A program made the translations under genes and the position numbers. The notes beneath the pieces are model-generated. The model worked only from the letters and a program-made list of their open reading frames with translations. It was not told the DNA's origin and made no database searches. This document shows, one piece after another, positions 14,117 to 43,084 of a DNA stretch of 64,000 bases (positions are counted from its first letter, which is position 1; every line of letters begins with the position of its first letter). Origin of the DNA: Elmis aenea (taxonomy: Eukaryota > Arthropoda > Insecta > Coleoptera > Elmidae); contig OX393576.1 in NCBI GenBank assembly GCA_947652605.1, forward strand, positions 56,954,966 through 57,018,965, written 5' to 3'.

Positions 14117-14279
14117 AGTGAGTGTATTTGTATGTTGAAGACCAACTTAGGCGTCATTTTCTATGGATCTATGCGTGATTTAGGCGTGTGTGGGCGCGGG
14201 ATTTAGGCGTAAGCGGTGTGATCTGGGCGCGGAAGTTATGCGTCGTGTTGGATGGGGTGCGGGTGTCGGATTAAAACAA
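14117..14279. repeat. left terminal inverted repeat of outer Polinton
   Basis: Begins AGTGAGTGTATTTGTATG and ends ATTAAAACAA. It matches the inverse of 42924-43084 with only a few differences. It is notably GC-rich for this region, with repeated TTAGGCGT motifs. Confidence 0.88.
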
Positions 14280-14349
14280 GAGTATAATTTATAAAATTGC
14301 TTTATTATTCATATTTGTTTACAATATTTTTATTTGTAAGGTATTATGA

Positions 14350-14868
14350 TTAACTTAAGTATCTATTATAAAATAATTTGTAAATTACAAACAACGACAT
14401 GTACAATAAATTCATAACGTCTATACCGATATAAAAGGGGAAAGATGAAATCGTGTGCTGTTGCTGATCCGACGACGGCGTAGATGTATTATTCTGCGTG
14501 TGTGGAACGACTACTTTTTCATGCGAGGAGCTGCTGTTAAGAAGTTCTTTATGCAGGAATGAAGTTTTTGCTGCGATTGTCGTATAATTTAATATGTGAT
14601 TCCATGGCGAGTCATCATGACTTTGGTTGGCGTGCAAATATCTTAATTTGTATTTGATAATGCTGTTATCGCCTGCAGAAATATTGGCAGCATAAAAAAT
14701 GGGAATACCATTATGATTGTTCGGAAACAGCTCGGTCCACTCGACTGGCCAATTTTCTTGTTCGTTGAAACAAACAAACGCTTTGTGCACTCCAGGCGCT
14801 CGGTATATTATAAAATTGTCTCCTATTATAGAGGCAAGGATGAGAACAGATGCTTTCAACAAGAACAT
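14350..14868 (-). CDS. Polinton-encoded secretory-type membrane protein, lineage A
   Basis: The ATG-started frame encodes 172 residues. The first 15 or so residues form a hydrophobic signal peptide. An ectodomain follows with several N-glycosylation sequons (NIS, NQS, NYT, NTS), then a Ser/Gln-rich stalk, a hydrophobic segment near residues 145-167 and a short basic tail. This is the layout of a type I membrane protein. Residues from FIIYRAPG onward align with FIVTRPPG of the inner Polinton's 149-aa protein (21148-21597), including the G-I/L-P-I/V-Y block and the KLRYLHAN/RVHYVYKN block. They are homologues carried by two different Polintons. Function is unknown; a virion envelope or host-surface role is inference only. 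It is the first gene inside the left repeat, pointing toward the end. Confidence 0.7.
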   Translation of the reverse strand: MFLLKASVLILASIIGDNFIIYRAPGVHKAFVCFNEQENWPVEWTELFPNNHNGIPIFYAANISAGDNSIIKYKLRYLHANQSHDDSPWNHILNYTTIAAKTSFLHKELLNSSSSHEKVVVPHTQNNTSTPSSDQQQHTISSFPFYIGIDVMNLLYMSLFVIYKLFYNRYLS

Positions 14869-14969
14869 CTTTGTAAGATTAAGATATACTATTGGAATAC
14901 ATGGTTTTTTATTTAAACTTATTGTAGGTCATTCACATATTGTTAACAAAGCGAATATTGTATGCAATC

Positions 14970-15620
14970 TTAGGTAATTAACATAGAATAGGTTTGTTTC
15001 ATGGATTTAAGATTTATGTATTCGGGTAGAGATGTGATCATCGCAGATTCATACTCTCCATTGCTAAATATTCTTTCGTTTCCAAGTTCACGATATTCAT
15101 AACACTCAATTGACAGCGAGCGTTGCGAATAATTTGCATCATAAGTACAGCGAACGGGTATTACTACGTCTTCATCGTATTCAAGTTTAAAATGTCTATA
15201 AAAATTGTGTTCACTTTCGATGATGCCACCAATTTCCATCTCTCTATCGATTAGGTGTCGTCTGAAGTCTTCGATGGCCTCTTCGACGGTAACTAAATGC
15301 GGAGAAGATTCCGAAGAGGCGAATAATTCGTCCGTTTCTACTAACGTCTTTGTTGTCGGTGTTGATATGTTTGAACTTGACGTTTCATCGGGTTGCACAA
15401 AGTTGGCAGGTTCGAGCGTCGGCAAAGATTTACTAGGTGTTAGCAGTTTAAACGATAAATTAATCTGAACTGTTTGATTGCTCGGTAATTGAACATTAAA
15501 TTTCGTTCGACCAATATGATCTGGCTCCCGTAGGTATATTGGAATTGGCGAACTGATTGCTCGTGGAATAATGAGAGGTAAAATAAGAAGAATAAAATAA
15601 AAACTGATAATAATCTTCAT
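14970..15620 (-). CDS. secreted protein with Ser/Thr-rich linker, unknown family
   Basis: Encodes 216 residues from an ATG. A strong signal peptide (about residues 1-24, cleavable after ...AISS) is followed by a short N-terminal domain with NQT and NLS sequons and a Ser/Thr/Pro-rich linker containing NIS (about residues 80-105). A C-terminal domain holds two cysteines in a CTYDANYSQRSLSIEC context, a likely disulfide. There is no C-terminal membrane anchor. It lies 102 bp upstream of the membrane-protein gene on the same strand, so the two may form an expression unit. I do not recognise the family. The frame is intact despite the age of the element. Confidence 0.6.
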   Translation of the reverse strand: MKIIISFYFILLILPLIIPRAISSPIPIYLREPDHIGRTKFNVQLPSNQTVQINLSFKLLTPSKSLPTLEPANFVQPDETSSSNISTPTTKTLVETDELFASSESSPHLVTVEEAIEDFRRHLIDREMEIGGIIESEHNFYRHFKLEYDEDVVIPVRCTYDANYSQRSLSIECYEYRELGNERIFSNGEYESAMITSLPEYINLKSMKQTYSMLIT

Positions 15621-15822
15621 GTTAATGCTGCTATCTGCTTGACAGATTTATTCACTTTGCTGGCGGCACTTTCGTAGCACAAGATGCTAACTGTATAAGC
15701 GCGCGGGTTCGTACTAGTTTTTTTTCTGCGACTGAATTCGTTTTTATAAGATGATTCGCGTGGGGGGAGGCTGATAAGGAATACGACGACGACGACGATA
15801 AAAAAACATCCGAATGATTCAT

Positions 15823-16212
15823 TTATAAAATTGCGTTTTTATTAATCCAAGAATTGTGGGCGTCAGAAAAGCCTAACCATCTAACGTATACTTTATTTCT
15901 GCTTTTTTTTAAAACTTTTTGAACGAGGTAAACATTAGGATGCTTGGTCTTTAACAGTTCATGCTCGTAAAAACAGCCTTGAATTTCATTGTCTTGATAA
16001 TCTTTGAGAATGTATGTGACAGGATTTGTATTTTTGAACGTTTTAATCGTAAAAATTTCTGTCGTCCAGTTGGGCGTGTAACCCTTCTCAAAAAGATGTT
16101 TATATTTGCTTATGCGAACCTTTTCTCCAACTTTGAATTTGGGCAATGGAAGCGTTTTGATTTTGCTATAGACAGTTGTTGGGGGTTCGAAGGGTTTTCG
16201 AGATAAAAAATA
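15823..16212 (-). pseudogene. Polinton integrase C-terminal fragment (SH3-like/chromodomain end)
   Basis: Open frame for about 130 residues. The first clearly integrase-like part, from KPFEPP onward, leads into PKFKVGEKVRISKYKH and a C-terminal chromodomain-like block with VYVRWLGFSDAHNSWI. It aligns with the end of the inner Polinton integrase (28932-29833), including YTPxW and NPVTYIL. The catalytic DDE core is missing. Upstream on the minus strand a stop codon follows at about 16213, where the nested BEL element begins. There is no ATG at the start of the homology, so this is a remnant. Confidence 0.82.
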
Positions 16213-16654
16213 TCATTAACCAAACTATTTACTTTTGTATCTATTCTATTTAACAAAATTCAATTACAAACTTGATAAATGCAAATGCAACTGCAACTGC
16301 AACTGCAACTAATCTAAAATACCCAAAAAATACCTATATGTAACCCCATGTCACGTGAAATATCATGCACTTTTTGAACCAATGAAATTTATGCAAAGAA
16401 ATGAACCAATGAAATAAAAGGGTAATTTCTACCGTGAGACGTTAAACGAAAAGTGTAAATCTCTGCAGAAGTTTCAGGTGACATTAAGTTTTCCCACAAA
16501 CAACCTGGGAACGAAGCTATAAGCACAATATGATGCCAGTGATATAATTGGTAGATAGTAACATGACTATCTTGATACAATGTAACATATTAAATATTAT
16601 TTGAAAAAATTGAATTATATTAATTAAATTATAAAATAGTATTACTTTACAACA
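16213..16654 (-). repeat. candidate 3' LTR or downstream region of BEL element
   Basis: On the minus strand a polypurine tract (AAATTAGAAGGGAGG, about 16655-16669) is followed at once by TGTTGTAAAGTAATAC. That is the expected junction into a 3' LTR beginning TG. The sequence that follows does not visibly match the candidate 5' LTR at 39739-39923, so the LTR call is tentative. It also contains a short GCAACT tandem run (16287-16310). Confidence 0.35.
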
Positions 16655-16677
16655 CCTCCCTTCTAATTTTGAAAATC

Positions 16678-18096
16678 CTACCTGGGATTGGTGCGGTTTT
16701 CGGAGCTCCTAGTCTCCGTTTCAACTTCCTTGGTACCTAAATTAAGGTTTAAACTAACATCACTGCCCGGATGAATTTCTTCCACACGTCCTAATTTCCA
16801 GTATAACGGTGGTAAATTATTTTCTTTCACAATGACTAAATCTCCTGGTTTGGTATTAGTATGTTGTTTAAACCATTTGTTCCTTTGTTGCAATTCGACT
16901 ACATACTCCAAGGACCATTTTTTCCAAAAGTGTTGGAGCAGTTGTTGCAAATACTGGTATCTTGACAATCGGTTCATTGGCACATCCATTAATTCTGGAT
17001 CTGGGATCGCTGTTGTTGACCGCCCGATCAAGAAATGTGCAGGACTCAATGCATCATAATCATCAGGAAGGGATGATAAAGGATGTAAAGGACGTGAATT
17101 AAGAACTGCTTCAATCTGTGTCAATGTAGTTAATAAATCCTCAAAGGTTAATAAAGCGTTAGATAAGACCCTTTTGAGGTGATATTTTGTAGATTTAATA
17201 CCCGCCTCCCACAATCCTCCAAAGTGAGGACTATTTGCAGGAATGAACTTCCAAATTATATTTTCATTACTCATGCTATCGGTTAAATTTTGATTATTTT
17301 TAATTAAAAATGTCCCTAAATCTTTGAGTTCTGAAGCTGGCAATAATTGCGGCCCCGCATGTAACATTCGAACGTGTTCATGTCGAAATATTAATTTTGA
17401 CAATAGATGTTTTCCCGAAATAAGAATAGGATGCTTTTTATTATATTGAAATTGTGAAAGCTGTAATCGCCCTTCTACTCGCATAATTTCATCAGAATCT
17501 AAAAATGGGTTTAATTTTTGTAGTTGCACAGGTAATAATTTTCCTTTTTTTAACATAACTATTTCTGCAGTGAATGATTCACCTTGTGCAATTTTAACTA
17601 AACAAAATAAAGATCTATCTAATTCATGAACACTCAACTGTCCGATTGTCCGATCGATTGTTTTTGTCTTGCAATTTGATATAAACCTTAAACAGTATGC
17701 AGTTACTCTCAGTAATTTGTTATATGACGAAAATTTTGTAAATAGTAAATTTGAGTCATTATTTATTAATGTACATGCATGAATAGTTTTTCGTAATTCT
17801 AATGGTTCATCACTAAATATCGGTATGGAAAGTGGCCATGTTTCTGACTCTTGTTGTAGCCAGATTGGACCATGCCACCATGAATGACATTTTTGTAGTA
17901 AGTCTGGACTGACACCTCGAGACAGTATGTCAGCAGGATTGTGTTCAGATTGAATATGTCGCCAATTATGCACGTTGGACATCATCTGAATTTTTGCTAC
18001 CCGATTTCCCACAAACGTTTGAAGTCGATGGGGGCTTGTACCTAACCAATGCAAGGTAACGGTTGAGTCTGACCAAAGAAAGTAGTCATCTATTTG
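16678..18096 (-). pseudogene. BEL pol C-terminal half: RNase H end and integrase, internally deleted
   Basis: The open frame runs from the inner Polinton's target site (18096) and encodes the end of RNase H, with LWSDSTVTLHWL just inside the junction. The EHNPADILSRG motif follows, then the BEL integrase region with MRVEGRLQLSQF, HAGPQLLPASE, PHFGGLWEAGIKS and the C-terminal GDLVIVKENNLPP block. After HAGPQLLPASE the sequence jumps to LKDLGTFLIKN. In BEL integrases these are normally separated by the zinc-binding remainder and the first two catalytic aspartates. So roughly 130 residues of integrase core are missing and the enzyme could not work. Confidence 0.82.
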
Positions 18097-18443
18097 AGTA
18101 GAAGAGCTATACAGATTCTACCCCAGGAAGTGAGCAATTAGAGCCACCAAGACGTTTCTGATCTTGCAAGACATCGCAAGACATCTTGCAAGACGTGCCT
18201 GATCTTGCAAGACGTGCCTGATCTTGCAAGACGTTTCTGATCTTGCAAGACATCTTGCAAGACGTGCCTGATCTTGCAAGACGTGCCTGCTGATCTTGCA
18301 AGACGTGTCTGATCTTGCAAGGCGTGGTTGATCTTATGCGTCTCGGATGCTGTCTTGAGATTGCGACTGTCGGGTAATAATGATGATGCGACTGTCGGGT
18401 AATAATGATGATGCGACTGCAGTGTGTGCACGCTGTATGACGA
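18097..18443. repeat. left terminal inverted repeat of inner Polinton
   Basis: Starts AGTAGAAGAGCTATACAG and ends at TGTGCACGCTGTATGACGA. It matches the inverse of 35577-35947. The two copies differ in length (347 versus 371 bp) because the internal short tandem array varies. At 18152-18330 there are nine copies of the 8-bp palindrome CTTGCAAG. Apparent frames across it are repeat translations, not genes. Confidence 0.9.
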
Positions 18444-19217
18444 TGCTCATCAGGGCGTGGAATTATTCTGTTAATTGATGTGTAAATCTGTCATTGTCAA
18501 CTGAACAATAAATTTTAATGACATGCATGAAAGATTTAATATTTGAAAAACAATGTAATATGCTTAAAGGAAGTGTGTGCACGCTGTATGACGATGCTCA
18601 TCAGGGCGTGGAATTATTCTGTTAATTAATAGGCATTGCTGTGTAAATCTATTATTGTCAACTGAACAATAAATTTTAATGACATGCATGAAAGATTTAA
18701 TATTTGAAAAACAATGTAAGTAATATGCATAAAGGAAGTGTGTGCACGCTGTATGACGATGCTAATCAGGGCGTGGAATTATTCTGTTAATTAATAGGCG
18801 TTAATGGGTAAATCTATTATTGTCAACTAGAAAGTCATCCTTGAACAAATTTGTTTATAATGTTATGCATGAAGGACTTAATATTTGAAAAACAATGTAA
18901 GTAATACGCATAAAGGAAGTGTGTGCACGCTGTATGACGAGTGGATGCTCATCGGGTGTGGTATTATTCTGTTAATTATTGATGTGTAAATCTATTATTG
19001 TCAACTGAACAATATATTTTAATGACATGCATGAAAGACCTAATATATGAAAAACAATGTAAGTAATATGCATACAGGAAGTGTGTGCACGCTGTATGAC
19101 GATCATGAGTGGATGATCATCGAGTGTAGAATTATTCTGTTAATTAATACGCACTGACGTGTAAATCTGTTATTGTCAACAACAATGCATGAGAGACTTA
19201 ATATTTTAAAAACAATG
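18421..19217. repeat. subterminal tandem repeats, unit about 165 bp
   Basis: Units each start with AGTGTGTGCACGCTGTATGA (about 18421, 18572, 18738, 18919, 19080). They include ATTATTCTGTTAATT and ACATGCATGAAAGA segments. A decayed further unit continues after the piggyBac insertion (20124-20250). The right end of the element has a different tandem repeat, so this array is specific to the left side. Confidence 0.8.
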
Positions 19218-19221
19218 TTAA

Positions 19222-20119
19222 CCCTTAATTACTCGCGCTGGTGTATTTTGTACACCAGCGCCAAATTTCTTGCCTCCATCAAATGTACGATTTTTTTGAT
19301 GGCACCAGACCCCCACCTAACCTATGTCTAACATATCCGGAATGTAATGGATCAGTCATACGCCAAAACGCCCGACTGACCTTTGCGTTTTTACATAAAT
19401 TTTAATGCGTTGTCACGTTGGTGCCTAGAATACACCACGCGGGAAATTTTGTAAATTATGTAAATATTCAATCTTTTATACAAAAACGTTTGTTTTATTG
19501 TGTGATGGTGTTATGTATGGGTATTTTTGTCATCCGCAAGTGTGTTCTCGCTTCTAGTTACGCTAAATATATTTTTTTTATTTGTTTATTTTTATGATTT
19601 TACGTCTTATATTCCCATAAAAATCCCCAATGCCTAACGGAGGAGGAAATGAGGGCCTTCTTGGAGGCTGGAAGTTCAGATGAGGAAATTCTAGGCGATA
19701 AGGAAGATGACCTTGAACGGAGAGTAATTACTCAAAGTGACCATGACAGTACGTCAGAACTGGAAGGCAGTGACCGTGAAAATGAGATTTCTAGTGAGAG
19801 TGATGGGGATGATAGTGCTGATGTAGAGTTTTTCTTTAGAAAAAATAGAGCCATCAAATCAGAAGAAGATTAGAGGGCTTTTAAAATTAATTTTGTTTTT
19901 CGTTAACTGTTTTTTTTTTGTTCGTTGATATTATGTTCCTATATATTTTTAAAATGTTTAACTTATTCGTAAAAACTATACTTATTTTTAATGTTTGACG
20001 TAAATTACCGTCAGCAAAAAAATTAGCGTTTTTGTTTAAAAACAAGCTAAATTTAGGGTGGTGTACAAAGTACACCGCGCGGGAAAAAGTTCGAATAATT
20101 TGGCGCGAGTAACTAAGGG
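19222..20119. mobile_element. non-autonomous piggyBac element, TTAA target
   Basis: TTAA at 19218-19221 and 20120-20123 flanks an 898-bp element. It starts CCCTTAATTACTCGCGC and ends in the near-perfect inverse, GCGCGAGTAACTAAGGG. CCCTT...AAGGG ends plus TTAA are diagnostic for piggyBac. Next to each end is a strong hairpin, for example GGTGTAC-AAA-GTACACC at 20061-20077. It inserted into the inner Polinton's left tandem array. Confidence 0.88.
19649..19873 (+). pseudogene. piggyBac transposase N-terminal remnant
   Basis: Encodes 74 residues, acidic and Ser/Asp/Glu-rich (MRAFLEAGSSDEE and SSESDGDDSADVEFF). This is typical of the disordered N-terminus of piggyBac transposases. It ends in a stop before any catalytic domain, and the element has no room for one. 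It is the retained 5' end of a deleted transposase gene. Confidence 0.65.
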
Positions 20120-20250
20120 TTAATAATATGCACGCTGTAGGACGATTGTTTATCTGACACAGTAATGTGCGCACATAATTATTACGCATGAGGGACTGTT
20201 TATTTTAACAATGTGTGAAAACAATGTGAGTAATAATATGCCCAAAAGGA

Positions 20251-20850
20251 GGGGTGGCTGTGGAGCATATATTAATCAGAGAAGTGCTTAGTGCTAGTTG
20301 TTACGCTATTGTACTATCAGTAATAATAATAAAAAAGTAAGTTCGACCGATAACCGACTCCGTCCAATTGCTTTCCTTGATTACAGCATTCTTTGATCAT
20401 GGAGCGTGTCTTCGCCGAAGTTGCCTGCCGACTTATCAGCCAACGGTATCCAAATGCATCAGTAAGAGAAAGGTAAAATGTTGTTACAAGTTTTTCATCT
20501 ATTTAGTATTTGTTTAGGCAGTTTCTGTCTCACCCCTGAAAAACGATCTAGAGGAAGCTATGATGGATGAATTCCCGTTGATCTACGAAGGCTTATTTTT
20601 GAAAATCTACTACAACCAACAGCTTCAGTTTGGTTTTTTTTTAATTAAAGACTTTTAGTTTATAGTGTTGGTATTAGCTATAGTTTAATAATATAAATAA
20701 AAAACTAAGATGTGTTTACTTGCCCGACCAGGGATATTAAAATAAAGTATATTATTAATTTATTTCGTCTATTATTTTAGTTGTTAGCAACCAGTCAGTG
20801 TGCGGGTATAAATTACTATTTACGTGCTAAAATAGCTCAGTTTGTCTAAC
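20251..20850. other. left interior of inner Polinton without a supported gene
   Basis: No long frame is present. A short ATG frame at 20400-20477 (MERVFAEVACRLISQRYP...) is preceded by a splice-acceptor-like TTGATTACAG and ends at a GGTAAAA donor-like site. A consensus donor GTAAGT lies at about 20338. The phases I tried do not give a longer protein, so I note it only as splice-site-like sequence. Confidence 0.3.
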
Positions 20851-21105
20851 ATGTCGCATGTTAAGTTAACAGAATTTCAACTAGATTTTCTATTCAATCA
20901 GTCTTGTTGTGACACGCACAGAGCCAACATAATTAACTTTATTTGGGAAATTTTACCGCCAGAGTTTCAAATAAAATTCGAAAAATATCTGTTGTGTATG
21001 AAACACTACAATAATAATTACAGCATGTCATCGGATACGTTCGATGGTCCGATTCCGGCTAGGATGCGTTGCAAAATCTGTAAGAGTGAGATGAATTTGT
21101 ATTAA
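20851..21105 (+). CDS. 84-aa Polinton protein ending in CxxC
   Basis: The first ATG is at 20851, giving MSHVKLTEFQLDFLF. The 84-residue product is mostly helical-looking, with a CC pair near residue 20 and a C-terminal RCKICKSEMNLY that could be half of a zinc site. It is the first gene of the rightward block and lies 42 bp before the membrane-protein gene. I do not recognise the family. Confidence 0.55.
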   Translation: MSHVKLTEFQLDFLFNQSCCDTHRANIINFIWEILPPEFQIKFEKYLLCMKHYNNNYSMSSDTFDGPIPARMRCKICKSEMNLY

Positions 21106-21147
21106 ATTTCGGTGCAATAGTTGGGTGAAAGCCTTATATAAGTGAAC

Positions 21148-21597
21148 ATGTTTAAAAACTTATTGCTACTGGTTACTGTTCTTGATAATATTTTTATTGT
21201 AACAAGACCACCAGGCACCCGTTTTGCTTACGTCACATTTGATTTTCAAGCTACAAACAGTGTGGTTTGGCATAAATTGGAACAAGAAAATTTGAAAAAC
21301 GGACTCCCAGTGTACACAATCAACCTCAACAATATCTCGAAAACAAATCTACTCCACTACAGAGTACATTATGTGTACAAGAACACTTCATTGACATCTG
21401 TGTGGGACGTTGTGCAACTAAAATCTTTTAATTACAGTGATATATCAAATGATATACCTAAGAACGATTGCGTTACTTGGGTGGTGATAATTCATGCATG
21501 GTTAATGTTCATACTCTACTTAACTACACTGTGTTGCGTGATTAAATTAACAAAAAGTGCGTTTCGCAAATCTGCATATGAAATGACTGAGCATTAG
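21148..21597 (+). CDS. Polinton-encoded secretory-type membrane protein, lineage B
   Basis: The first true ATG is 21148 (MFKNLLLLVTV), giving 149 residues. It has a signal peptide of about 17 residues and an ectodomain beginning around FIVTRPPGTRFAYV with sequons NIS, NTS and NYS. A strongly hydrophobic segment at about residues 108-131 is followed by a basic cytoplasmic tail. It is homologous to the outer Polinton's 172-aa protein (14350-14868) through the ectodomain, and both have the same signal/ectodomain/anchor plan. The role is unknown. Its presence in two Polinton lineages suggests a real element function rather than a captured fragment. The frame is intact. Confidence 0.72.
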   Translation: MFKNLLLLVTVLDNIFIVTRPPGTRFAYVTFDFQATNSVVWHKLEQENLKNGLPVYTINLNNISKTNLLHYRVHYVYKNTSLTSVWDVVQLKSFNYSDISNDIPKNDCVTWVVIIHAWLMFILYLTTLCCVIKLTKSAFRKSAYEMTEH

Positions 21598-21703
21598 TTT
21601 ACCATTGTGACACATCCGGGATGTCTCTCACGCATGAGTGCACTATTGTTAGTGCATGAATATACACAGTACACACACAGTAAAATAGTTAGTCAACCTC
21701 GAG

Positions 21704-22015
21704 ATGGATACGATTAAAGAGTTAAACGTGTTAGGGCGTGCTGAGTCCCTGAAACCAGTTCTCCATGCAAAAGATATGGAACCAAACAAATTGTATCCAA
21801 TAGAGATTATAAAGCCAATCAATACTACGTTTGGCAGAAGTGTTATTGTGGAAACCGCATCACATGTGATTTTTTTACCAAAACGCATTGTCGACTCTTT
21901 GGATGAAGATAAGATCAAAGAATTGCGACAGATGCAGTTGGCTCTGATATTTCGCGGTTTTAAGGATGTTGGAAAGAAAACCGATGCGAATTTGATAGAA
22001 TTTGTGAACGTTTAA
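21704..22015 (+). CDS. small conserved Polinton protein, possible nucleic-acid-binding OB-like fold
   Basis: Encodes 103 residues. The pattern LYPIEIIKPINTTFGRSVIV, followed by a VIFLPKRIVDSL block and a final RGFKDVG...IEFVNV, is shared with the 167-aa protein of the outer Polinton (41567-42070), which has AYNITDIHKHVTKFGDNLMV. Proteins with the pattern TxxG-x-x-V-x-V ... LP-x-R are common in invertebrate virus-like elements. A single-stranded-DNA-binding role is inferred from length, beta-rich pattern and position just before the polymerase; it is not shown. Intact frame. Confidence 0.6.
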   Translation: MDTIKELNVLGRAESLKPVLHAKDMEPNKLYPIEIIKPINTTFGRSVIVETASHVIFLPKRIVDSLDEDKIKELRQMQLALIFRGFKDVGKKTDANLIEFVNV

Positions 22016-22064
22016 AACAGTTGTGTTGTTTATAGTTATACTTAGTTGAAGTGTTGGCTTAAAA

Positions 22065-25000
22065 ATGGAAGGTAATACTTTTAGTAATATGTATTTAGTT
22101 TTAAAAGAAGCGTGTAAGAAGTTACAAGAGGGTGGTGGTGGTGGAGGTGACAAGCAATTAATAAAGACTTGGATTAATCACAGTAATCGTTCAATTCTTT
22201 TAATTTTAAGAGCTCTTCGGCTAGAGACTATAAGTGTTGGTGAAAAAAGACATTTAGAAAGTGTTTTAGGTCAAATTAAACGTTGTAAACTAATTTTAAA
22301 TGATTTGTTAACAAGTAAGCAGGGTAGTGGACTTAAGGAATCTCGAAGTCAGAGAGTTACTTGGGAGGATATAAAGAATTGCTTTAAATCGAGAATTCGT
22401 ACAGGAATCATTATTAACCGTAAGCATAAATTATTAAATTCATTTTTTGATGACTGTTTTCATTTATTTGCGAGTCGTTTGAGAAACGAGTACAGAAAAT
22501 ATCAGTGCCCTTTCAAAATAAATTTCGTATTTTGTGCCGAGTTTGTAAAGCAATCTGGAGATAAAAATACCTTTGACGAGAAATTTTTTAATACAAAAAA
22601 CACCCTTATCAATGCGCGTCAGTTAACAAACGACGATTTAAAACTATGGTTCGACAGTAATGTCAGTGAATTTTTTATGACAAAACTAGAAGACTTTCAG
22701 GAAAGGGACAGCGGATGGTCGATCGCGAATATTATCTCACTGGGCGTAAATATTAATAACTGTGAAGAATTATTTCACGCCGGCTCCTCCTATGTAAAAT
22801 TACCAAAGAGTATTAAAGACAAAAAGGCTATTATTAACGTGATTAATCAAGATCACGCATGCTTTGCTCATGCGATAATTTCTGCACTCTACCCAACAAC
22901 AAACCATCCAGAACGTCCTTCATCCTACCCGTATTACGGAGACGTTTTAAATTTACAAAATATTACTTTTCCTATGACCATTAATCAAGTTGCAATATTC
23001 GAGAAACATAACAATATCTCGGTGAATGTTTACGTTCTGCAATTACAAAATTCAGAGTTCATTACTTGTCCCGTATATATAACGTCTAATAAACGAGATA
23101 CCCACGTTAATTTGTTAATGATACAAGATAAGTACACAAACTGTGACGAACATGTTCGTTATCACTTTTGTTGGATCAAGAGTTTATCTCGGTTGATAAG
23201 TTCACAGCTAACTAAAGCGAGATGGAAGGTATTTATATGTGACAGATGTTTGCAATATTTCTATTGCGAATCAAAATTAAATACACATATCATAGATTGT
23301 AACCAAATTAATAAGTGTAGAATTGTCCTACCAACTAAAGAAGAATCCACTTTACGATTTAAAAATTATTGTCACAAGGAATACGTTCCATTCGTAATTT
23401 ACAGCGATTTTGAGTGTATATTAAAACCACTTCCGGAAAACGATCCACCACAATCTACAACAAAATATCAACAGCACGAACCGTTCAGCGTTGCGTACTA
23501 TGTACACTGTAGATTTGATCCCGAATTATCATTTTTTAATTCTTACAGGGGGGCGGATTGTGGTGCTTGGTTCGCGAAAGAATTGGACAAAATTTTATAC
23601 CGTTTAAAAGACTATATATACGCAAACGAACCGATGGATCCGTTGACACCTGCTCAAGAAAATGAGCTTCACGATCCGGCAACAGTTTGTCATATTTGTA
23701 AAAAACCTATTGTAAACAAAACTTATGTTAGGGATCATACCCATTTCCCTATAAAATCACATAACTTTCGAGGTAAAGCTTGTAATAGTTGCAATCTTAA
23801 TTATGATAACGCTAAATATACTGTTCCAGTCGTATTTCACAATTTTACAGGTTATGATTCTCATTTTGTTCTGAAAGATCTAGCTAATGCATTCCCGGGG
23901 GAAATTTCATTATTACCGTTAAATAAAGAAAAATACATATCTTTTACGAAACGTTATCGTGATACGAAATTGAAATTAAGATTTATAGATTCCTATAAAT
24001 TTCTAAGCGCTTCGCTTGACAAACTTGTGTCATATTTAACGAGAGATCAATTTAAGATATTGGACGCACTAAATCCCAACTTGACTGAAACTCAGAAACG
24101 TTTGTTAACAAAAAAGGGAGTTTTTCCCTACGACTATGTAGACAGTTGGCAAAAATTAGACGAAACTCGGCTTCCTGACAAAGAACACTTTTACAGTAAA
24201 CTCAAAAACAGTCATATATCAGACGATGATTTCATACATGCACAAACTGTGTGGGACGCGTTTAACATAACAAACTTAGGAGCGTATAGTGATTTATATT
24301 TAAAAACAGACGTTTTGTTGTTGGCAGACATATTCGAAAATTTCCGAACTGGCTGTAAGGACACCTATGACCTTGACCCCGCTAATTATTATACAACCCC
24401 TGGATTTACATGGGACGCGATGTTGAAGTATACCGGTATCGAGTTAGAACTTTTAACCGACATAGATATGTTACTTTTCGTAGAACGCGGAATTAGAGGA
24501 GGAGTTAGTCAGGTTTCGACAAGACACGCTGTGGCCAATAATAAGTTTATGAATAATTACAATCCAACATTGCCATCGAACTATCTAATGTATTTCGACG
24601 TGAATAATCTTTACGGTTGGGCAATGGCTCAGTATTTACCATATGGCGGTTTTCAGTGGTTAACACAAAACGAAATTGATGTTATGAACGTACTCGAAAT
24701 AAATGATGACTCATCAGTAGGTTATATACTTGAGGTTGATATTGAATATCCTGAACAACTGCACGATTTACATAAATATTTACCTTTTGCACCAGAACAT
24801 CGCATTCCACCGAACAGTAAACATTCGAAATTATTAACAACTTTATATAAAAAAGAAAGATATGTCATACACTATCGAAACTTAAAACAATGTTTGCAGG
24901 CACATTTGACCGTAACAAAAATACACAGAGTGCTTAAGTTCAATCAGAAACCATTTTTGAAAAGTTACATCGACTTAAATACAAGTAAACGACAGTCAGC

Positions 25001-26665: not shown

Positions 26666-26671
26666 GATTTA

Positions 26672-31659: not shown

Positions 31660-31660
31660 T

Positions 31661-32356: not shown

Positions 32357-32501
32357 TGTAATTGTCCACTCCTACGATTTATATCCAACGATTTGACTTC
32401 ACGAATGAAACCCCTCATTTGTTCATAATCTTTAATTAACTGTTATGTAGTTTTTATATTCTTCAAGAGTCGAGTTAGTTTCCATTTAAACTCTGCCCGC
32501 T

Positions 32502-34974: not shown

Positions 34975-35124
34975 GTTGTTAGATGGTTCGATGGTTGACA
35001 ACTGAATTCGAGCTGATTCGATTAATGTCCAAACAGTTTGCCCCACTTTACAACGATATAATTATTGAAAACTGCATAAGCTTATCAAATTTATCACAGC
35101 TATTGTCTCCGTATTCGCAATTTC

Positions 35125-35600
35125 TGCAACAACGATTTTAAATGCCATTGCAGCTGCAATGTTTTAATTGTTATGCTAATTAATGCAAGTATTCTTTTCA
35201 TGTATGCTCTTGAACATTTATTTAGATCGATTTACTTCCGTAGGAAAGCACTTATCTCAGGGATTATTTTTAAGTTAACAATAACGCTATTATTTAAACT
35301 ACGGAATTCTACCCGAATTAACTCCCTACATTGATTATCTTATTGTTCACAATTTCTGCAACAACGATTGTAAATGCACTTGCTGAATTGTTTTAATTGT
35401 TATTCTGCAAGTATCAATGCGTATTAATTAACACGTTGCGCTCATTACACACCCCACAATGATAAACGTTCGTCATACAGCTGTTGTAAATGCACTTGCT
35501 GCATTGTTATTCTGCAAGTATCAATGCATATTAATTAACACGTTGCGCTCATTACACAACACACAATGATTACCGTTCGTCATACAGCGTGCACACACTG
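35125..35600. repeat. right subterminal tandem repeats
   Basis: TGTAAATGCACTTGCTG and AACACGTTGCGCTCATTACA recur (about 35369/35486 and 35431/35539), giving two good units of about 110 bp and an older one near 35135. The unit differs from the left-side array. Confidence 0.7.
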
Positions 35601-35947
35601 CAGTCGCATCATCATTATTACCCGACAGTCGCATCATCATTATTACCCGACAGTCGCAATCTCAAGACAGCATCCGAGACGCATAAGATCAACCACGCCT
35701 TGCAAGATCAGACACGTCTTGCAAGATCAGCAGGCACGTCTTGCAAGATCAGCAGGCACGTCTTGCAAGATCAGGCACGTCTTGCAAGATGTCTTGCAAG
35801 ATCAGAAACGTCTTGCAAGATCAGGCACGTCTTGCAAGATCAGGCACGTCTTGCAAGATGTCTTGCAAGATGTCTTGCAAGATCAGAAACGTCTTGGTGG
35901 CTCTAATTGCTCACTTCCTGGGGTAGAACCTGTATAGCTCTTCTACT
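35577..35947. repeat. right terminal inverted repeat of inner Polinton
   Basis: Inverse of 18097-18443, with eleven copies of the CTTGCAAG palindrome at about 35700-35895, spaced 12-22 bp. It ends CTGTATAGCTCTTCTACT, followed by the TATTTG target copy. Confidence 0.9.
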
Positions 35948-35953
35948 TATTTG
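35948..35953. repeat. target site duplication of inner Polinton (right)
   Basis: TATTTG, identical to 18091-18096. The interrupted sequence is the BEL RNase H region. Confidence 0.88.
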
Positions 35954-37537
35954 TACATTTAATGACTTCCGAACCTTATCAAACAGCTCTGATAACAAAA
36001 GTGCCGCACATAATTCCAATCGCGGTATTGTAACCAATTTTAATGGTGCCACACGTGTTTTAGAACATAAGAGGTGAACATATATTTTTCCTTCTGAATT
36101 GATACTTCTTATATATAAGCAGGCGCCATATGCCTTCTGCGAAGCGTCCGCGAATCCATGCAACTCAACTCTAATTGCATTGTTACAAATAACCCTTCTA
36201 GGAATTCGAATGTTGTTTATTGTTGTCAGTTGTTGCCGTAGAATGTTCCATTTTGTACCAATATCAGTGGGAATAGCATCGTCCCATGATAATTTCTCTA
36301 ACCATAATTTTTGTAGTAATAATACACGGTCCCAAAAGACCCAATGGGTCAAATATCTGGGATATGTCAGATAATAATAATCGTTTTGTAATAATTTTAA
36401 TTTCTCTAGGTTGTGCGATATTATATCGTAGCGTATCCGTATTATTAGACCAATATAATCCTAACATCTTATTGTAACTGTTGTCACCAAAATGCATATC
36501 ATGATCTATTACTTCGAAACCTGTTATTGCAGGTGTAACCTTGATATCATTAGACATCCATTTATACAATTTGAAGCCTGCTGACTGTAACATTTCTGAT
36601 ATGTCCCTTGTCAGGCTAAGAACTTCATCTATATTTTCTCCTCCACTTAACAAGTCATCAACGTAAAAATCTGATAGGATGACTTGAGCAGCCTTTGGAT
36701 TAATTTCTTTGTTGTCAATGGCAATTTGTTTTAGACAACGTATTGCCAGATAGGGCGCAGAGGCTGTTCCATACGTAACAGTGTTCAGTTGGTAAATTTG
36801 TAGGACATCGGATTGATTTGGTCGCCATAATATTTGCTGTAATAAACGTTGTTGTGGACTCACTAATATTTGGCGGTACATTTTTTCGATGTCCGCGCAA
36901 AATACAATTTTATGTTTGCGAAAACGAATTAAAATATTGAATAACTCATCTTGAATCACAGGTCCTGCGTGTTGCATATCATTGAGCGAAACACCGTTAG
37001 AGGACTTACATGATCCATCAAATACCACTCTTAGTTTAGTAGCAGTACTGCTCTCTTTTAAGACGCCATGATGGGGCAAATAAAATACATCCCCTATGTG
37101 TTCATCACATGTAGAAATTTTACTCATACAAGCTCTTCATATTCCTTCATGAAGGCCAGGTATCGTTGTTTCAGCTTTTTCTCCTTGTCTAATTTGCGTT
37201 CCAAATTGTTGAATCTATTTATTGCCACCTCTCGGGTGTCCCCTAGCGTTGGTGTCGGTTCTTTGAATGGTATTGAAACTATAAATCTTCCCTCATCATT
37301 TCTTTTGGTAGTTTCAATAAAATGGTTTTCACAGAAAACTTCGTCCTTGGATAAAATCTTTCCTTCTTGAAGTTCTTCAATCTCCCAAAATGCCCTCAAT
37401 TGTTCGTGTATTTTGTTATCGATACTCACATTGCAAGTAACTGTTTCATTTCTGATTGATTTGCATGAGAATGGACCCGCAATAATCCATCCCAAAACAG
37501 TTTTTTTGTAGCACAGGTCGACCATTTCCCAACTCAA
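35954..37537 (-). pseudogene. BEL pol: reverse transcriptase and RNase H N-terminal part
   Basis: Minus-strand frames in three phases cover, in order, a KKTVLGWIIAGPFSCKS linker after the protease, the RT region (PHHGVLKESS, LRVVFDGSC, FCADIEKMYRQI), the YVDD active site in SDFYVDDLLSGG, and IFDPLGLLGP. These are followed by the RNase H start with ELHGFADASQKAYGA and PRLELCAALLLSEL. Frame breaks lie near 37124 and 36310. The reading stops at the inner Polinton insertion and resumes at 18096. Confidence 0.85.
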
Positions 37538-39252
37538 TTTTCCTTGAGCAAATTAATTCCCAAAATAAGTTTGCTCCTATTAACATTTCAATTTTGCCTT
37601 GTTTATAAAAATAATTATCTGCCAATTTAATATTACAGGGTATGTTTAATTTGGATGGGTCAATCGACGTTGTTGGTAAATTTTCTGTTATTTTATCAAT
37701 CACATAGCAGTTCACCTTGCGTGTATATGAAGACCGACATGATTGCAATCTAACTTCTGTTTTGTATTTTATGTTCGACAAGGTTTGATTAATTCCAATA
37801 ATCGAAAGCTGTATATCTGTTTTTCTTATATTTAATTCGTTGCATAGATCTGTTGTAATGAAGCTGCTTTCTGAACCGGAATCTAATAATGCTCGACATT
37901 GCCTATCTTTTCCTAGATTATCCTTTAAAATAACTATAGCAGTTGATAAAAGGCCATGCTCGTTATTTGTTAAACCATAATTGGAAACTACTGCACTGTG
38001 ATTAGAATTTGGTTTAGGACCTTGGTTATCATCAAAGTTTGTATTTGATCTTGGCCTTGAATAATGTAATAGTGTATGATGTGATTTGCCACAGTTTTTG
38101 CATCTACTTGACGATCTACAGTCCGTGCTGTAGTGATTTTTTCTCAAACAATTAATGCATAATTTTCTATTTTTTGCTTCACTCGTCCTATCAAAAGCGC
38201 CAAGTTCCAAAAATGTTTCACAAATATAAACTAAATGTCCGTATTTGTCACAAAATGTACATCTCGTATGCGCAGATGTATTTGTTCCACCACTCGTGGA
38301 CACCATTGTAGCAATCAGTCCAGAATCTGATTTTGTATGAAAATGTTTATGGACGTTAACCGTTTTGTTTTTAATTTGTAATGTTTCTAGTAGTAAACAT
38401 TTATTTTTCAAGAACGTTTGAATGTCCTCTACAGATGGAAATTCATCATTAAGGGTACTAACCTCCCATTCTTTTTTTGTTTGTGTATCTAACTTATCGG
38501 TAATAATATGTATTAGTAAAGTTCCCCAATGATCAACTGGTTGGCCCAATGCCTTAAGTGATAAGAAACATTTTGAAAAATCATCTGTTAATTTACGCAA
38601 TTCCATAGCCGATTCCCCTTTAACCGTTGCCAAACTAAACAGTGCCTTAATATGATTGTTAATTAATAACTTTTTGTTATCATACCTATCACAAAGTAGT
38701 TTCCACGCTACTTCATAGTTGTGTTCACTTATCTCTAATGATTTAATAACTTGTAAAGCTTGCCCTTGCAAACTAGCCTTTAGATAATGCAGTTTTTGCA
38801 CGTGACATATCAATATTTGAATGAATGACTGATTTAAACATGTCTCTAAATTCAATCCAATTTTCGTACAAACCGCTAAACTTTGTTAATTGTATAGCTG
38901 GCAATTTTATACCACTATTAGAACCAGTCACTGAATTTTCTAAATTATTACATGATTGGTTTGCATTAATCATTGTCATTGCTTGTGCAATTGTTTCAAA
39001 ATATGCGGTTTCAAAACGATCCCGCTGATTATATTGATTTACTACATTTGTTTCGTCGCTTAATTCTTCAATAGCTTCTTGAACATTGCAAAATTCAAGA
39101 AACACTGTTTTTAATCTCAAAAGTCTCTCATCTAACTCATTTGTGTTGATTTGTTCTGGATTACTCCGACATTTTGTCAAGAATGATTGAAATGAAGTTA
39201 AACTGTGTTTGTTACTACCACGTTTGCGTATTAATGCATTTAATTCAGTCAT
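37446..39252 (-). pseudogene. BEL gag and aspartic protease
   Basis: The ATG at 39252 (MTELNALIRKRGSNKHSL) opens the gag region, with LPAIQLTKFSGLYENWIEF as in BEL gag. A frame change near 38800 moves into HYLKASLQGQALQVI. Zinc knuckles CTFCDKYGHLVYIC, CINCLRKNHYSTDC and CKNCGKSHHTLLH follow, then the retropepsin motif LLDSGSESSFI. A second frame change near 37500 leads into pol. Confidence 0.85.
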
Positions 39253-39344
39253 GTTTACAGATTGAAGCTAAAAAGGATAAAAGATAAACAAAGGAATACA
39301 CCTGCTATTTTCTGTAGCGGTTCCACCTTGTTTTCACCGGAATG

Positions 39345-39640
39345 TCAAGTTGCTTTGACGTAGCCTCGAAGCCCGTGTGTTCGTCGCTTGGATGTAGCCT
39401 CGTCGCCTTGTGATTCGTCGCTTGGATTTAATCTCGTCGCCTGTGTGATTCGTCGCTTGGATTTAATCTCGTTGCCTGTGTGATAGCCTCGAAACCCGTG
39501 TGTTCGTCGCTTGGGTGTAGTCTCGTCGCCTTGTGATTCGTCGCTTGGATGTAGTTGCTTTGACGTAGCCTCGAAACCCGTGTGTTCGTCGCTTGGATGG
39601 GTGATAACCTCGAAACCCGCCGATCTTCTACGTAGCCTTG
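39345..39640. repeat. minisatellite in BEL leader
   Basis: Irregular tandem repeat built of TTCGTCGCTTGGATGTAG, GCCTCGTCGCCTTGTGA and GCCTCGAAACCCGTGTG segments, about 7-8 units. It lies between the candidate 5' LTR/primer site and the gag start, so it is a leader repeat of the retroelement. Confidence 0.75.
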
Positions 39641-39712
39641 TCAGCCATTTTTATTATGAATTTTTGATTAATTAATTGTAGCATTAGGTTATGCGTAGCT
39701 TGCCGATTTGAT

Positions 39713-39738
39713 AATCGCGGTTCGAAGGACCAAAAATA
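39713..39738 (-). other. candidate tRNA primer-binding site of BEL element
   Basis: On the minus strand TTTTTGGTCCTTCGAACCG follows two bases after the candidate 5' LTR end. Sequences of this TGG-start/TTCGAACC type, complementary to a tRNA 3' region, are usual at this position in BEL elements. Confidence 0.55.
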
Positions 39739-39923
39739 TGTAATTGCTTTTATTTGGCTGAACAATTCTACAGATATTTGATATTATTTAGAAAACTTAA
39801 ATTTTAATTCACTACATCGCTGTCACTTCTTTCGTGGTCGGCTACACACTTACATACTCGCACTGCCGCCACACTATCCGCTCTCTCTACTGGTGGGAAT
39901 CCAAAATTAAACTATTCTTAACA
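39739..39923 (-). repeat. candidate 5' LTR of BEL element
   Basis: On the minus strand the 185-bp segment begins TGTTAAGAATAG, contains an AATAAAAG polyadenylation-like signal near its end and finishes AATTACA. The primer-binding site follows. No matching copy is visible at the other end of the element. Confidence 0.5.
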
Positions 39924-40504
39924 GGATCGTCTGCAACTTTCTGATAAAATTTTGACTTATGACCCCTAGGTTCTATTTTTTAAATTTAATAGGCATTTTT
40001 AATAAGTTTTAATACATAGTTACTTAAACTAGCTAAACTGTCTGCAACTTGCCGTTAAAATATTACCTTATGCCTGCATGTAATGTTTTTGATGTCAAGA
40101 GTTTTTTACTCAACGTATGATTGATCGCATCTAATATAATGTTTTTTTGTTGTCAAGAGTTTTTTACTCAACGTATGATTGCCCGCATCATGCTCGGGGC
40201 TAATAAAAAAACAAACAGATCATTAGACAAATATTTTATCGGCATAGGAGTGTTACCGCAATTTTTGAGAAAGATTTTATCGGTATAGGGATGTTACCTA
40301 CCGCAATTTTTGGGGTGTATTTTATCAGATGAGGCAAGCAATTTTTGGGGTGTATTTTATTAGTTCCAAGCAATCATACCGACAAAAACATTATTACAGC
40401 AATATTCGAATAACATTTGGGAAAGGTAAAAATAACTGATTTTTTAAATTATTTACTGTAATCTTTTAATGTTATTTTGTTTTTAAGAAAAGGTCTTAAC
40501 AAAA
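39924..40504. other. outer Polinton interior with short tandem repeats
   Basis: No gene. GTCAAGAGTTTTTTACTCAA occurs at about 40095 and 40151. CTGTCTGCAACTT-like segments recur near 39930 and 40039. ATTTTATCGG(C/T)ATAGG and CAATTTTTGGGGTGTATTTT each occur twice between 40230 and 40370. The array sits directly upstream of the nucleotidyltransferase-like gene and could hold its promoter. Confidence 0.5.
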
Positions 40505-41191
40505 ATGGATATCACTATGGACGTGTTTTTAAATATATTAAAATATACCTATTTCATAGGCGAAATATTCAACGCGAAACAGTTCCATCAATACGGAGAA
40601 ATTTTTGCTTTTGTACGCGACTTGACTCGGCAATTTGAATTTGGCTGCATTGCGGGAGGGTTTCCCACTTTTTTGCTGAGTAAAACCAACACCTTTCACG
40701 ATGTGGACATATATTTAAATTGTCGACTTATTAAATCTAAAATAAGACGACGATTTAAATTAAAACGCGAACTCTGCTGCAACATAGGAAAAATTTTTAA
40801 TTATAACATTTTAGAATCATTGCGTTTAAAAGAAGCCGTTCCTTGGTACGACATTCCTAAACACACTTTTACTATATATAAAAGAGTTATTTCAGACATT
40901 AAAATTCAAGTTATTTGTTTTCATATAGATAACATATTAAATCAGGAAGTGTACGCGCTAAAAGTTATAAACACCTTTGATTTGGATATTTGTAAAAATG
41001 CAATTTTTCCAGATTTAGAATTTGAAAAATTCTATTTTATAAGCACGCCATCAACAAAATTTATACTCGAACATTTTGGACCTTATCAACGCAAACAAAA
41101 ATATTTAGATAGAATTAATGGAAATTCTTTTAAAACTAACCCGTATTCTTTAAAATTAATATGTTATCTTGCTCTATTGAAATATTTATAA
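40505..41191 (+). CDS. nucleotidyltransferase-fold protein of outer Polinton
   Basis: Intact 228-residue frame from ATG. Residues 47-72 carry the hallmark of the polymerase-beta-type nucleotidyltransferase fold: CIAGGFPTFLL (GG at 51-52) followed by FHDVDIYLN (aspartates 66 and 68). A later FDLDIC (159-164) matches the third acidic motif (FDL-x-x-C) seen in nucleotidyltransferase-like proteins of large DNA viruses. It could transfer a nucleotide to RNA, protein or a small molecule; the substrate cannot be told. I know of no such gene as a Polinton core component, so it looks like lineage-specific cargo. First of three rightward genes at this end. Confidence 0.68.
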   Translation: MDITMDVFLNILKYTYFIGEIFNAKQFHQYGEIFAFVRDLTRQFEFGCIAGGFPTFLLSKTNTFHDVDIYLNCRLIKSKIRRRFKLKRELCCNIGKIFNYNILESLRLKEAVPWYDIPKHTFTIYKRVISDIKIQVICFHIDNILNQEVYALKVINTFDLDICKNAIFPDLEFEKFYFISTPSTKFILEHFGPYQRKQKYLDRINGNSFKTNPYSLKLICYLALLKYL

Positions 41192-41240
41192 AAGCATATT
41201 TCATATATAGTAAATTTGTTCTGCATTATAAATTAAATTC

Positions 41241-41477
41241 ATGCAGTCAAATTCAAATTATTGTAAGCAAATTTTACTCGAAATATTACACTTAAATTTA
41301 AACTATTTCGATCCAATTTTATTCGGAAATATAGCATCTATTCCTTCCGGGTTGATGGACTTTCAAATAGGACACTCTTATCAACACGTGATGTTCATGT
41401 ATCCGGGGTGTGGGGGGGGTACGTTTCAACTTTACAATTATTTTACAGCAGCTGACGACGTCAGAAATTTCTTTTAA
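41241..41477 (+). CDS. 78-aa hypothetical protein of outer Polinton
   Basis: Short ATG frame 49 bp after the nucleotidyltransferase-like gene, same strand. It starts MQSNSNYCKQILLEIL and ends GGTFQLYNYFTAADDVRNFF. It has no recognisable domain. Coding status is supported only by position and by its fit between two stronger frames. Confidence 0.4.
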   Translation: MQSNSNYCKQILLEILHLNLNYFDPILFGNIASIPSGLMDFQIGHSYQHVMFMYPGCGGGTFQLYNYFTAADDVRNFF

Positions 41478-41566
41478 GTAGGGTGGGGGACTAAATATGA
41501 TATTTAACAGCGCGAATTTAAGATCAGTTCATTAGTTCGTGTTGTTTAGTGAATTAAAGCGTCGAG

Positions 41567-42070
41567 ATGGAGTCCAAGAAACGTGTCAAAAAATCAAGCA
41601 ACAATAAAAAAAGTGCCAAGAAGTTACTCGAAGCATTCAATTTATTTTCGTCAGTTGCGTGGCTAAATCTTTCTACGATGGAGAAAAATTTTGCGTATAA
41701 CATAACGGACATACATAAGCACGTCACAAAATTCGGCGACAATCTTATGGTAGAGCTCGACAAACCATACAAACTCTATCTACCCGAAAGTTACAACGCA
41801 TTAAACGAAAAACAAATTACTGAATTGTCTACTGGTAATTATGTGGTCATCAATCAGGGCGCAAAAGGCAAATGTTACCAGCTGCAACTTATTCTGAAAT
41901 CAGATATTCCCAGCAACACTGCTGCACGGACTTCGGCAACTTCTCCAACTCCTTCTGCAAGCAACGCCACTGACGATGAAGAAGAGGCAAAATTAAAACA
42001 ATACGCACAAAGACCAAATCTCTATTCTCAAAAACACCTGATGGGACTGGAGTCCTTATTATTCGATTAA
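41567..42070 (+). CDS. 167-aa homologue of the small Polinton possible DNA-binding protein
   Basis: ATG frame, intact. A lysine/serine-rich N-terminus (KKRVKKSSNNKKSAKK) precedes a core AYNITDIHKHVTKFGDNLMV, then YLPESYNALNEKQITEL, a Ser/Thr/Pro linker and an acidic tail. The core aligns with the inner element's 103-aa protein (21704-22015), which lacks the N- and C-terminal extensions. Basic plus OB-like core suggests nucleic-acid binding; this is inference. Confidence 0.6.
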   Translation: MESKKRVKKSSNNKKSAKKLLEAFNLFSSVAWLNLSTMEKNFAYNITDIHKHVTKFGDNLMVELDKPYKLYLPESYNALNEKQITELSTGNYVVINQGAKGKCYQLQLILKSDIPSNTAARTSATSPTPSASNATDDEEEAKLKQYAQRPNLYSQKHLMGLESLLFD

Positions 42071-42181
42071 AACAAAAAAGTAAGTTTTACATACATTTTA
42101 TTATTTCCTATAATATTACAGTTCACATTTTAAATCCGTTTTATTTAATTTTTACAAAGTACAATTTAGCACAATTTAGTA

Positions 42182-42442
42182 TTAACGTTTGCATTTAAAC
42201 ATTCTTAAATAAAAACATATTAATTTTTTAACTTCTTCTTCAGATATACGCCGAAAATCGCAGGGACACGTGTCAGGCCCTTCCTCTGCATTTGGCAATC
42301 TCCATGGAAAATTTCCACCATGTAAACCGCCGTCGCCGCCGCCGCCATCAGCATCCCGTTCCAAAAATCGAAGAAATGCAACTTTGTGCCGTTCTAAAAT
42401 TAAATCTCCGTACGTTTCCAAAAACTGTTCAACCTTCATCAT
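42182..42442 (-). CDS. 86-aa hypothetical protein near right end of outer Polinton
   Basis: ATG frame, MMKVEQFLETYGDLILERHK, with a glycine run (DADGGGGDGGLHGG) and a DTCPCDFRRISEEEVKKL C-terminal part. The opposite strand is also open here, so coding sense is uncertain. I prefer the minus frame because of its balanced composition and an AATAAA-poor but properly ended frame. Family unknown. Confidence 0.4.
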   Translation of the reverse strand: MMKVEQFLETYGDLILERHKVAFLRFLERDADGGGGDGGLHGGNFPWRLPNAEEGPDTCPCDFRRISEEEVKKLICFYLRMFKCKR

Positions 42443-42611
42443 TACGACGACGACGTTCCCCGCCGCCGCTCAACAACGACTGGATACATGGACTTTAATT
42501 TTATAAGTTTTATAGCATGCACTTTAGTTTATAAGTTTTATAGATGTATTAATAATATTTTGCATAATCTTTTTTCTAAATAAAACATTTTGAATTTTTA
42601 GCTCTTTCAAA

Positions 42612-42891
42612 ATATAGTATACGCATGAAACAGCAATCGTTAATTTTACAAAGAAAAATATTACAATAATTTATTTCAACGGTCTACTTCTAATAGACGT
42701 GGGCTAATATTACAGTTCAAAGTGATTCAAAACATACATCAATGTCGACCGGAGTCAACATTTATGGCTGTTTTGAAACACTCTAGACTCTAATATTCGC
42801 CCACGTATAGTAGAAGTAGCCCGTTGAAATAAATTATTGTAATATTTCTCTTTGTAAAATTAACGATTGCTGTTACATACGTATACTATAT
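42612..42891. mobile_element. 280-bp palindromic MITE inside outer Polinton
   Basis: The left arm ATATAGTATACGCATGAAAC is mirrored by the right arm ending at 42891. Arms of about 110 bp match nearly perfectly (ACAGCAATCGTTAATTTTAC, TTACAATAATTTATTTCAAC), with a loop near 42750. It sits between the last gene and the right inverted repeat. Confidence 0.75.
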
Positions 42892-42923
42892 TTGCTAAAA
42901 TTTCGAAGCAATTTTAAATTTTT

Positions 42924-43084
42924 TTGTTTTAATCCGACCCGCACCCCATCCAACACGACGCCTAACTTCCGCGCCCAGATCACACCGCTTACGCCTAAAT
43001 CCCGCGCCCACACACGCCTAAATCACGCATAGATCCATGAAAATGACGCCTAAGTTGGTCTTCAACATACAAATACACTCTACT
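42924..43084. repeat. right terminal inverted repeat of outer Polinton
   Basis: Inverse of 14117-14279; ends AATACACTCTACT and is followed by TTCTTA (43085-43090). Differences from the left copy are a few single bases and a short indel. Confidence 0.88.

Follow-up and report, generated by a model that had tools for sequence, protein, structure and literature searches.

A 64,000-nucleotide window of the genome of the beetle Elmis aenea (assembly GCA_947652605.1, contig OX393576.1, positions 56,954,966 to 57,018,965 of the forward strand) contains a large virus-like transposon of the Polinton type that has lost its core and is filled with the tail of a Gypsy-type retrotransposon joined to a BEL retrotransposon, the latter carrying a second Polinton. 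One deletion between two separate retrotransposon insertions probably both created the joint between the two retrotransposons and removed about 11.6 kb of core from the outer Polinton. The original prediction for this stretch described a nest of Polinton, BEL and Polinton; that nest is real, its coordinates (14117-43084 and 18097-35947) are exact, and so are both of the 6-bp duplications on which it was based. The three selfish elements then counted are nested as described, but the count is one short, since the stretch 16177-16761 belongs to a Gypsy-type element. All comparisons with other copies were made within the beetle's own 516-Mb genome of 302 contigs, the contig bearing the window being C1.

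The two Polintons are bounded as follows, positions being counted from the first base of the window.

14111-14116, forward strand: left 6-bp target duplication TTCTTA of the outer Polinton (from the sequence)
43085-43090, forward strand: right 6-bp target duplication TTCTTA of the outer Polinton (from the sequence)
18091-18096, forward strand: left 6-bp target duplication TATTTG of the inner Polinton (from the sequence and from empty sites in other copies)
35948-35953, forward strand: right 6-bp target duplication TATTTG of the inner Polinton (from the sequence and from empty sites in other copies)

The predicted AG...CT termini of Polinton type are also present, the outer ends reading inward as AGTGAGTG and AGTAGAGTG, and both inner ends as AGTAGAAG. 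Whether the 6-bp repeats could be coincidental was checked. Two random 6-mers would agree at a frequency of about 0.0008, as computed for the AT-rich DNA of the window, and the inner site is uninterrupted in all eight of the other BEL copies examined. Since seven of these eight hold exactly TATTTG, once (the remaining one has TATTTT), the inner duplication is not a coincidence. At the protein level, the two duplicated codons are present once in 63 of the 75 BEL proteins that allowed placement of both sides, out of the best 120 of 1180 relatives listed; those that are named come mostly from insects. These uninterrupted sites establish, at the level of sequence comparison, that the inner Polinton inserted into the ribonuclease H (RNase H) region of BEL, and bear out what had been proposed for the younger element.

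Judged against copies elsewhere in the genome, the middle layer is two elements, a BEL and a Gypsy-type tail, and not BEL alone. Its parts, including the long terminal repeats (LTRs), are listed below.

39739-39923, reverse strand: complete BEL 5' LTR (the same LTR stands at both ends of other copies)
35948-39738, reverse strand: 5' part of BEL, with gag (DUF1759), protease-like DUF1758, reverse transcriptase and the RNase H region (Peptidase_A17), in several frames
16758-18096, reverse strand: 3' part of BEL, with the rest of RNase H, an integrase without its catalytic core and DUF5641 (5.8e-26)
16758-16761, unstranded: CATC, common to both elements at the BEL-Gypsy joint (copy comparison)
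16655-16761, reverse strand: last 107 bp of the Gypsy-type internal region (four of four longer copies)
16177-16654, reverse strand: complete 478-bp LTR of the Gypsy-type element, its 3' LTR (seven of seven LTR-only copies with exact 4-bp duplications)

The BEL element shows the domains of BEL/Pao in order, namely gag DUF1759, protease, reverse transcriptase, the Peptidase_A17 region and DUF5641, with the gag and RNase H domains each spread across two frames. A primer binding site at about 39713-39727 is presumably like that for tRNA-Tyr. Exact 5-bp duplications (ACTAC, GTTAG and GCCGT) flank three of the three other BEL copies examined; the window copy lacks a second LTR and such a duplication, and is a truncated copy with the 5' LTR only. 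The BEL LTRs had been left unsettled in the original prediction, and the other copies supply the answer: the window BEL retains its whole 5' LTR and has lost its 3' LTR. In all seven of the other copies that carry the relevant part, BEL homology starts at 16758 (the eighth, on contig C144, matches in this region with just a 57-base piece of the query's middle), and all three of the copies read have an LTR of their own about 310 bp past the equivalent of 16758. This stretch of about 310 bp and the LTR are replaced in the window by 16177-16761.

The replacing segment is whole in four of four longer Gypsy-type copies, all of which diverge from the window at 16761, and the surviving portion of the element here is its last 585 bp. 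It is putatively a Ty3/Gypsy element, an assignment that goes by the RT_RNaseH, H2C2 and rve integrase domains encoded by the one longer copy scanned. No LTR pair was found for the window BEL because its two flanks are LTRs of different elements. No stretch common to these two LTR-like flanks was detected, and the outer flanks of the middle layer, ACAGT and GGATC, do not match; the differing flanks and the lack of a common stretch argue for two separate insertions. The possibility that the two flanks are one LTR diverged beyond recognition was rejected by a control with 16 settings of 40 trials each: planted copies of at least 100 bp, with up to 30% divergence, were recovered in 35 to 40 of the trials of every setting. 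Two further candidates, a BEL copied in RNA form with split LTR parts and a BEL with both LTRs trimmed, were rejected because other copies show a complete BEL 5' LTR here and a foreign LTR opposite. No part of the BEL or LTR sequences compared was found in the genome pieces L021-L024, in contrast to L025, which does contain part of them.

The integrase catalytic core of BEL is missing as well, amounting to about 395 bp near 17330 that are still present in other copies, or most often to 132 residues in protein terms (90 BEL relatives measured). The loss occurred at an 8-bp repeat, CTGAAGCT, both copies of which are kept in other BEL copies (read by eye). Overlapping matches had suggested flanking repeats of 25 bp, but these were rejected, as just 12 of the 25 bases agree in register.

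What remains of the outer Polinton, with its terminal inverted repeats (TIRs), lies in two pieces of 5,221 bp together.

14117-16176, unstranded: left remnant, with a TIR at 14117-14302, open frames at 14353-14928 and 14973-15647 (reverse strand) and an integrase tail at 15826-16176 (reverse strand)
39924-43084, unstranded: right remnant, with open frames at 40487-41188 and 41558-42067 (forward strand), a palindrome at 42610-42893 and a TIR at 42906-43084

The outer element has a 6-bp target duplication, AGT-type ends and TIRs of 186 and 179 bp (2 mismatches in 178 ungapped columns, with 6 gap events), as a Polinton should. Polymerase B, integrase core, ATPase and capsid are all missing from it, the sole trace of such genes being a 117-residue C-terminal integrase tail (15826-16176) that shares 55% identity with its counterpart in the inner Polinton, and it is a Polinton remnant, not a complete Polinton. 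From 14254 to 16176 it matches three of three related copies read at about 90%, the match ending at exactly 16176 in each; past this point the three related Polintons continue in sequence common to all three. Between the breakpoints these relatives keep about 11,603 bp (C7), 11,676 bp (C8) and 11,667 bp (C2), their first matched base lying 4, 53 and 73 bp inside 39924, respectively, so the core lost from the window copy measures 11.6-11.7 kb. Matches to 40412-42609 occur in at least 24 other places at 84-88% identity (40 of 90 candidates scored).

Two insertions and one deletion make the plainest account of these observations, since the edges of the insert are LTR ends, the flanks are mismatched and the same edges lie 11.6-11.7 kb apart in the relatives. 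The outer Polinton would have inserted first; its duplication TTCTTA is observed, and the enzyme that made it is presumed. A Gypsy-type element would then have entered the integrase gene of the Polinton, and a BEL of the same orientation would have entered near its other end, in either order, leaving the LTR edges now seen. A deletion would next have begun close to the end of BEL pol and stopped 107 bp short of the Gypsy-type 3' LTR, with four shared bases at the joint; it would have taken away the BEL 3' end with its LTR, the core of the Polinton and the remainder of the Gypsy-type element; the product is at hand, and the process and timing are those proposed here. Deletion at shared bases is suggested by the CATC at the joint and by CTGAAGCT at the integrase loss. 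Either before or after this deletion, the second Polinton entered BEL RNase H and generated TATTTG, as the uninterrupted sites elsewhere show. BEL would also have lost the 395 bp or so of its integrase core, and a copy of 883 bp of DNA beside the outer element would have come to lie inside the inner Polinton; both states are visible in the window, and their time and process are presumed. As read, no layer is predicted to be able to move alone.

An unambiguous order of insertion had been claimed for the locus. This stands for the entry of the inner Polinton into BEL, but not for BEL relative to the Gypsy-type element, nor for the deletion relative to the inner Polinton. As for the suggestion that the site tolerates repeated insertion, entry into already dead transposon DNA would be enough as an account.

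Several points weigh against the history proposed. The deletion is known from its product alone, no intermediate having been found; each retroelement insertion has lost its far end, and with it any duplication of its own to compare; four shared bases could occur by chance; and the differences between TIRs (2 of 178 in the outer Polinton against 1 of 347 in the inner) are too few for dating the layers. In addition, the outer TIR is more like that of two short elements (91-97%) than that of the single large relative whose TIR could be matched at each end (78% over 68 bp); a complete element more closely related to the outer copy may therefore have escaped notice.

The joint and the insert edges also bear on other accounts of the middle layer. 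Retroelement hybrids produced by template switching are of a known kind, and a BEL-Gypsy hybrid that arose in this way during reverse transcription, and entered by a single integration a Polinton whose core was already deleted, would have the clean joint with four shared bases that is seen. After one integration, however, the LTRs should match, and so should a 4- or 5-bp duplication on either side; the LTRs here share nothing detectable, the flanks are ACAGT and GGATC, and the joint was not seen among the other BEL or Gypsy-type copies listed, all of which makes such a hybrid improbable. Capture of retroelement fragments to patch a double-strand gap in the Polinton, without any insertion made by an integrase, would account for a core that is missing exactly where the fragments lie, and capture of retrotransposon sequence at breaks is reported in the accessible part of one study (PMC4516963). 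Captured fragments would usually end anywhere, whereas the outer edges here, 16177 and 39923, coincide exactly with the ends of LTRs, as is the case with an integrase, and capture is an improbable explanation.

It is also conceivable, if very improbable, that the composite formed elsewhere and reached this site in one piece, with the retroelements already inside the outer Polinton when it moved. The duplication TTCTTA dates only the arrival of the TIR-bounded unit and not its contents, the relatives in at least 24 places might supply proteins in trans, and two short elements of about 1.07 kb with 6-bp duplications imply that internally deleted forms can insert; against this stands, though weakly, that the BEL-Gypsy joint was seen at no other place among the matches listed. 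An assembly artefact joining unrelated copies, to which an 883-bp stretch repeated without a difference might point, is highly unlikely given the exact 6-bp duplications on both Polintons, the confirmation of the inner one by uninterrupted sites and a contig 73 Mb long.

Two separate insertions followed by one deletion remain the preferred history, and the locus then offers a base-level view of core loss in a large virus-like transposon, with breakpoints at LTR ends, a 4-base joint and the lost 11.6-11.7 kb sized from relatives. It also illustrates that an exactly bounded nest can still conceal an extra element, revealed only through genome-wide copy comparison. A more far-reaching notion, to which we give little credence, is that two retrotransposons in one Polinton act as paired break points, so that deletion strips out the viral core and leaves a TIR-bounded, retroelement-loaded shell that could be mobilised in trans by relatives of intact size. 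If true, this would be a route to new composite transposons.

Mavericks are described, in the available portion of a survey of animal Polinton/Maverick elements, as having an AGT end motif, perfect 6-bp duplications and TIRs, and the majority of those in vertebrates as eroded and bearing frameshifts and large insertions (PMC8097293). The present Polintons resemble them in TIRs, 6-bp duplications and AGT-type ends, and the inner copy does so in polymerase B, rve integrase, ATPase and capsid as well; the outer copy differs from the elements in that portion of the survey in being core-less and filled with parts of two retrotransposons. An endogenous Cafeteria virophage with two adjacent Ngaro1 insertions, itself within an Ngaro4 element, presents a similar picture of retrotransposons inside Polinton relatives, with two retroelement layers (PMC8547959). 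Those are, however, tyrosine recombinase retroelements in another host, and the accessible part of that report shows no case in which two retroelements are fused and the viral core is lost. Polinton-like viruses of cryptophytes are likewise interrupted, within or between genes, by reverse-transcriptase elements, often with direct repeats (PMC12220804); these retrotransposon-like insertions in viral elements are comparable to ours, but the hosts are protists, and the accessible part of the account shows no BEL-Gypsy fusion.

The two retroelements of the window agree with BEL/Pao and Ty3/Gypsy in their domains, their LTRs and the 5-bp and 4-bp duplications of their copies in this genome, but both are incomplete here, BEL being without its 3' LTR and integrase core and the Gypsy-type element reduced to just its last 585 bp. 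No BEL-Gypsy fusion inside a Polinton is described in the titles and abstract openings of the openly licensed papers that the literature searches listed. Retrotransposons nested in Polinton relatives are already in print and the locus is a well-resolved further case; overall, it is a well-resolved yet ordinary record of the decay of mobile DNA, and a clean case of a known kind. We know of no open question that hinges on it.

The inner Polinton has retained its genes in the following arrangement.

18097-35947, unstranded: inner Polinton, 17,851 bp, with TIRs at 18097-18443 and 35577-35947
22050-25121, forward strand: DNA polymerase B (Pfam DNA_pol_B_2, 1.2e-29), its frame ending inside a 20-bp tandem array
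27785-28492, reverse strand: A32-type ATPase (Pfam Pox_A32, 5.9e-08)
29138-29878, reverse strand: integrase (Pfam rve, 2e-14), its tail running on in a different frame
30541-31564, reverse strand: major capsid protein in two frames (Pfam double-jelly-roll (DJR)-like, 9.4e-61 and 5.4e-16)
32805-33687, forward strand: 883-bp patch identical to 44455-45337 beyond the outer element

Structurally it shows a 6-bp target duplication, AGT-type ends and TIRs several hundred bp in length; the TIRs, of 347 and 371 bp, disagree at 1 of 347 ungapped columns and are offset by 2 gap events. Its genes are those of a Polinton by Pfam, including a polymerase B of the protein-primed type, an rve integrase, an A32-type ATPase and a double-jelly-roll capsid. 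The copy is not intact, as the polymerase is stopped in the array and both the integrase tail and the capsid are split across frames, leaving three genes (polymerase B, integrase and capsid) without a single intact frame. Frames 29882-30403 and 31664-32371, considered for the protease and minor capsid genes, gave no Pfam or PHROGs match; PHROGs matched one of ten frames, 28488-28931, and did so weakly. Scans of viral contigs with protein and pattern queries found no relative, and Rfam and ARAGORN searches over the window gave no match.

The twin of the 883-bp patch (44455-45337) lies 1.4 kb outside the outer element. The copied stretch begins within a palindromic element, and its end falls within the inverted repeat of the element next to it. 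With such edges the patch is not a transposition, and it has the look of a recent repair or of a misassembly. Palindromic elements beginning TATACCGGGTG or TATACAGGGTG stand head to tail with a common TA at 43988-47537 and 61164-62459, and we take them to resemble non-autonomous elements of Tc1/mariner type.

Some observations concern the family of the outer Polinton. Five partial copies lie in one orientation at C4:33554836-33592697 with spacings of 8.5-9.8 kb, as in tandem amplification. The integrase tail at 15826-16176 shows 99% protein identity to that of three related Polintons (L058, L060 and L062), where four other frames of these elements show 62-87%, as if the integrase alone were held constant. 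Beside the right TIR, the 284-bp near-palindrome at 42610-42893 is kept in three related Polintons, and for that reason it was assigned to the outer Polinton and rejected as a separate small transposon.

A small frame is common to both Polintons (14353-14928 and 21142-21594, 28% identity), and its product looks as though it may be secreted or membrane-bound. Protein searches returned one database relative each for 40487-41188 (88% identical) and 14353-14928 (87%). Frame 40511-41188 had no significant match among solved structures, and its predicted model was useless (mean predicted local distance difference test score, pLDDT, of 36); it may carry a nucleotidyltransferase-like motif. Finally, the two elements of about 1.07 kb, L002 (C2, about 47649884-47650953) and L003 (C8, about 20819647-20820720), have TIRs 91-97% like those of the outer Polinton and exact 6-bp duplications, AATATG and CAAATT, and are miniature non-autonomous Polintons.

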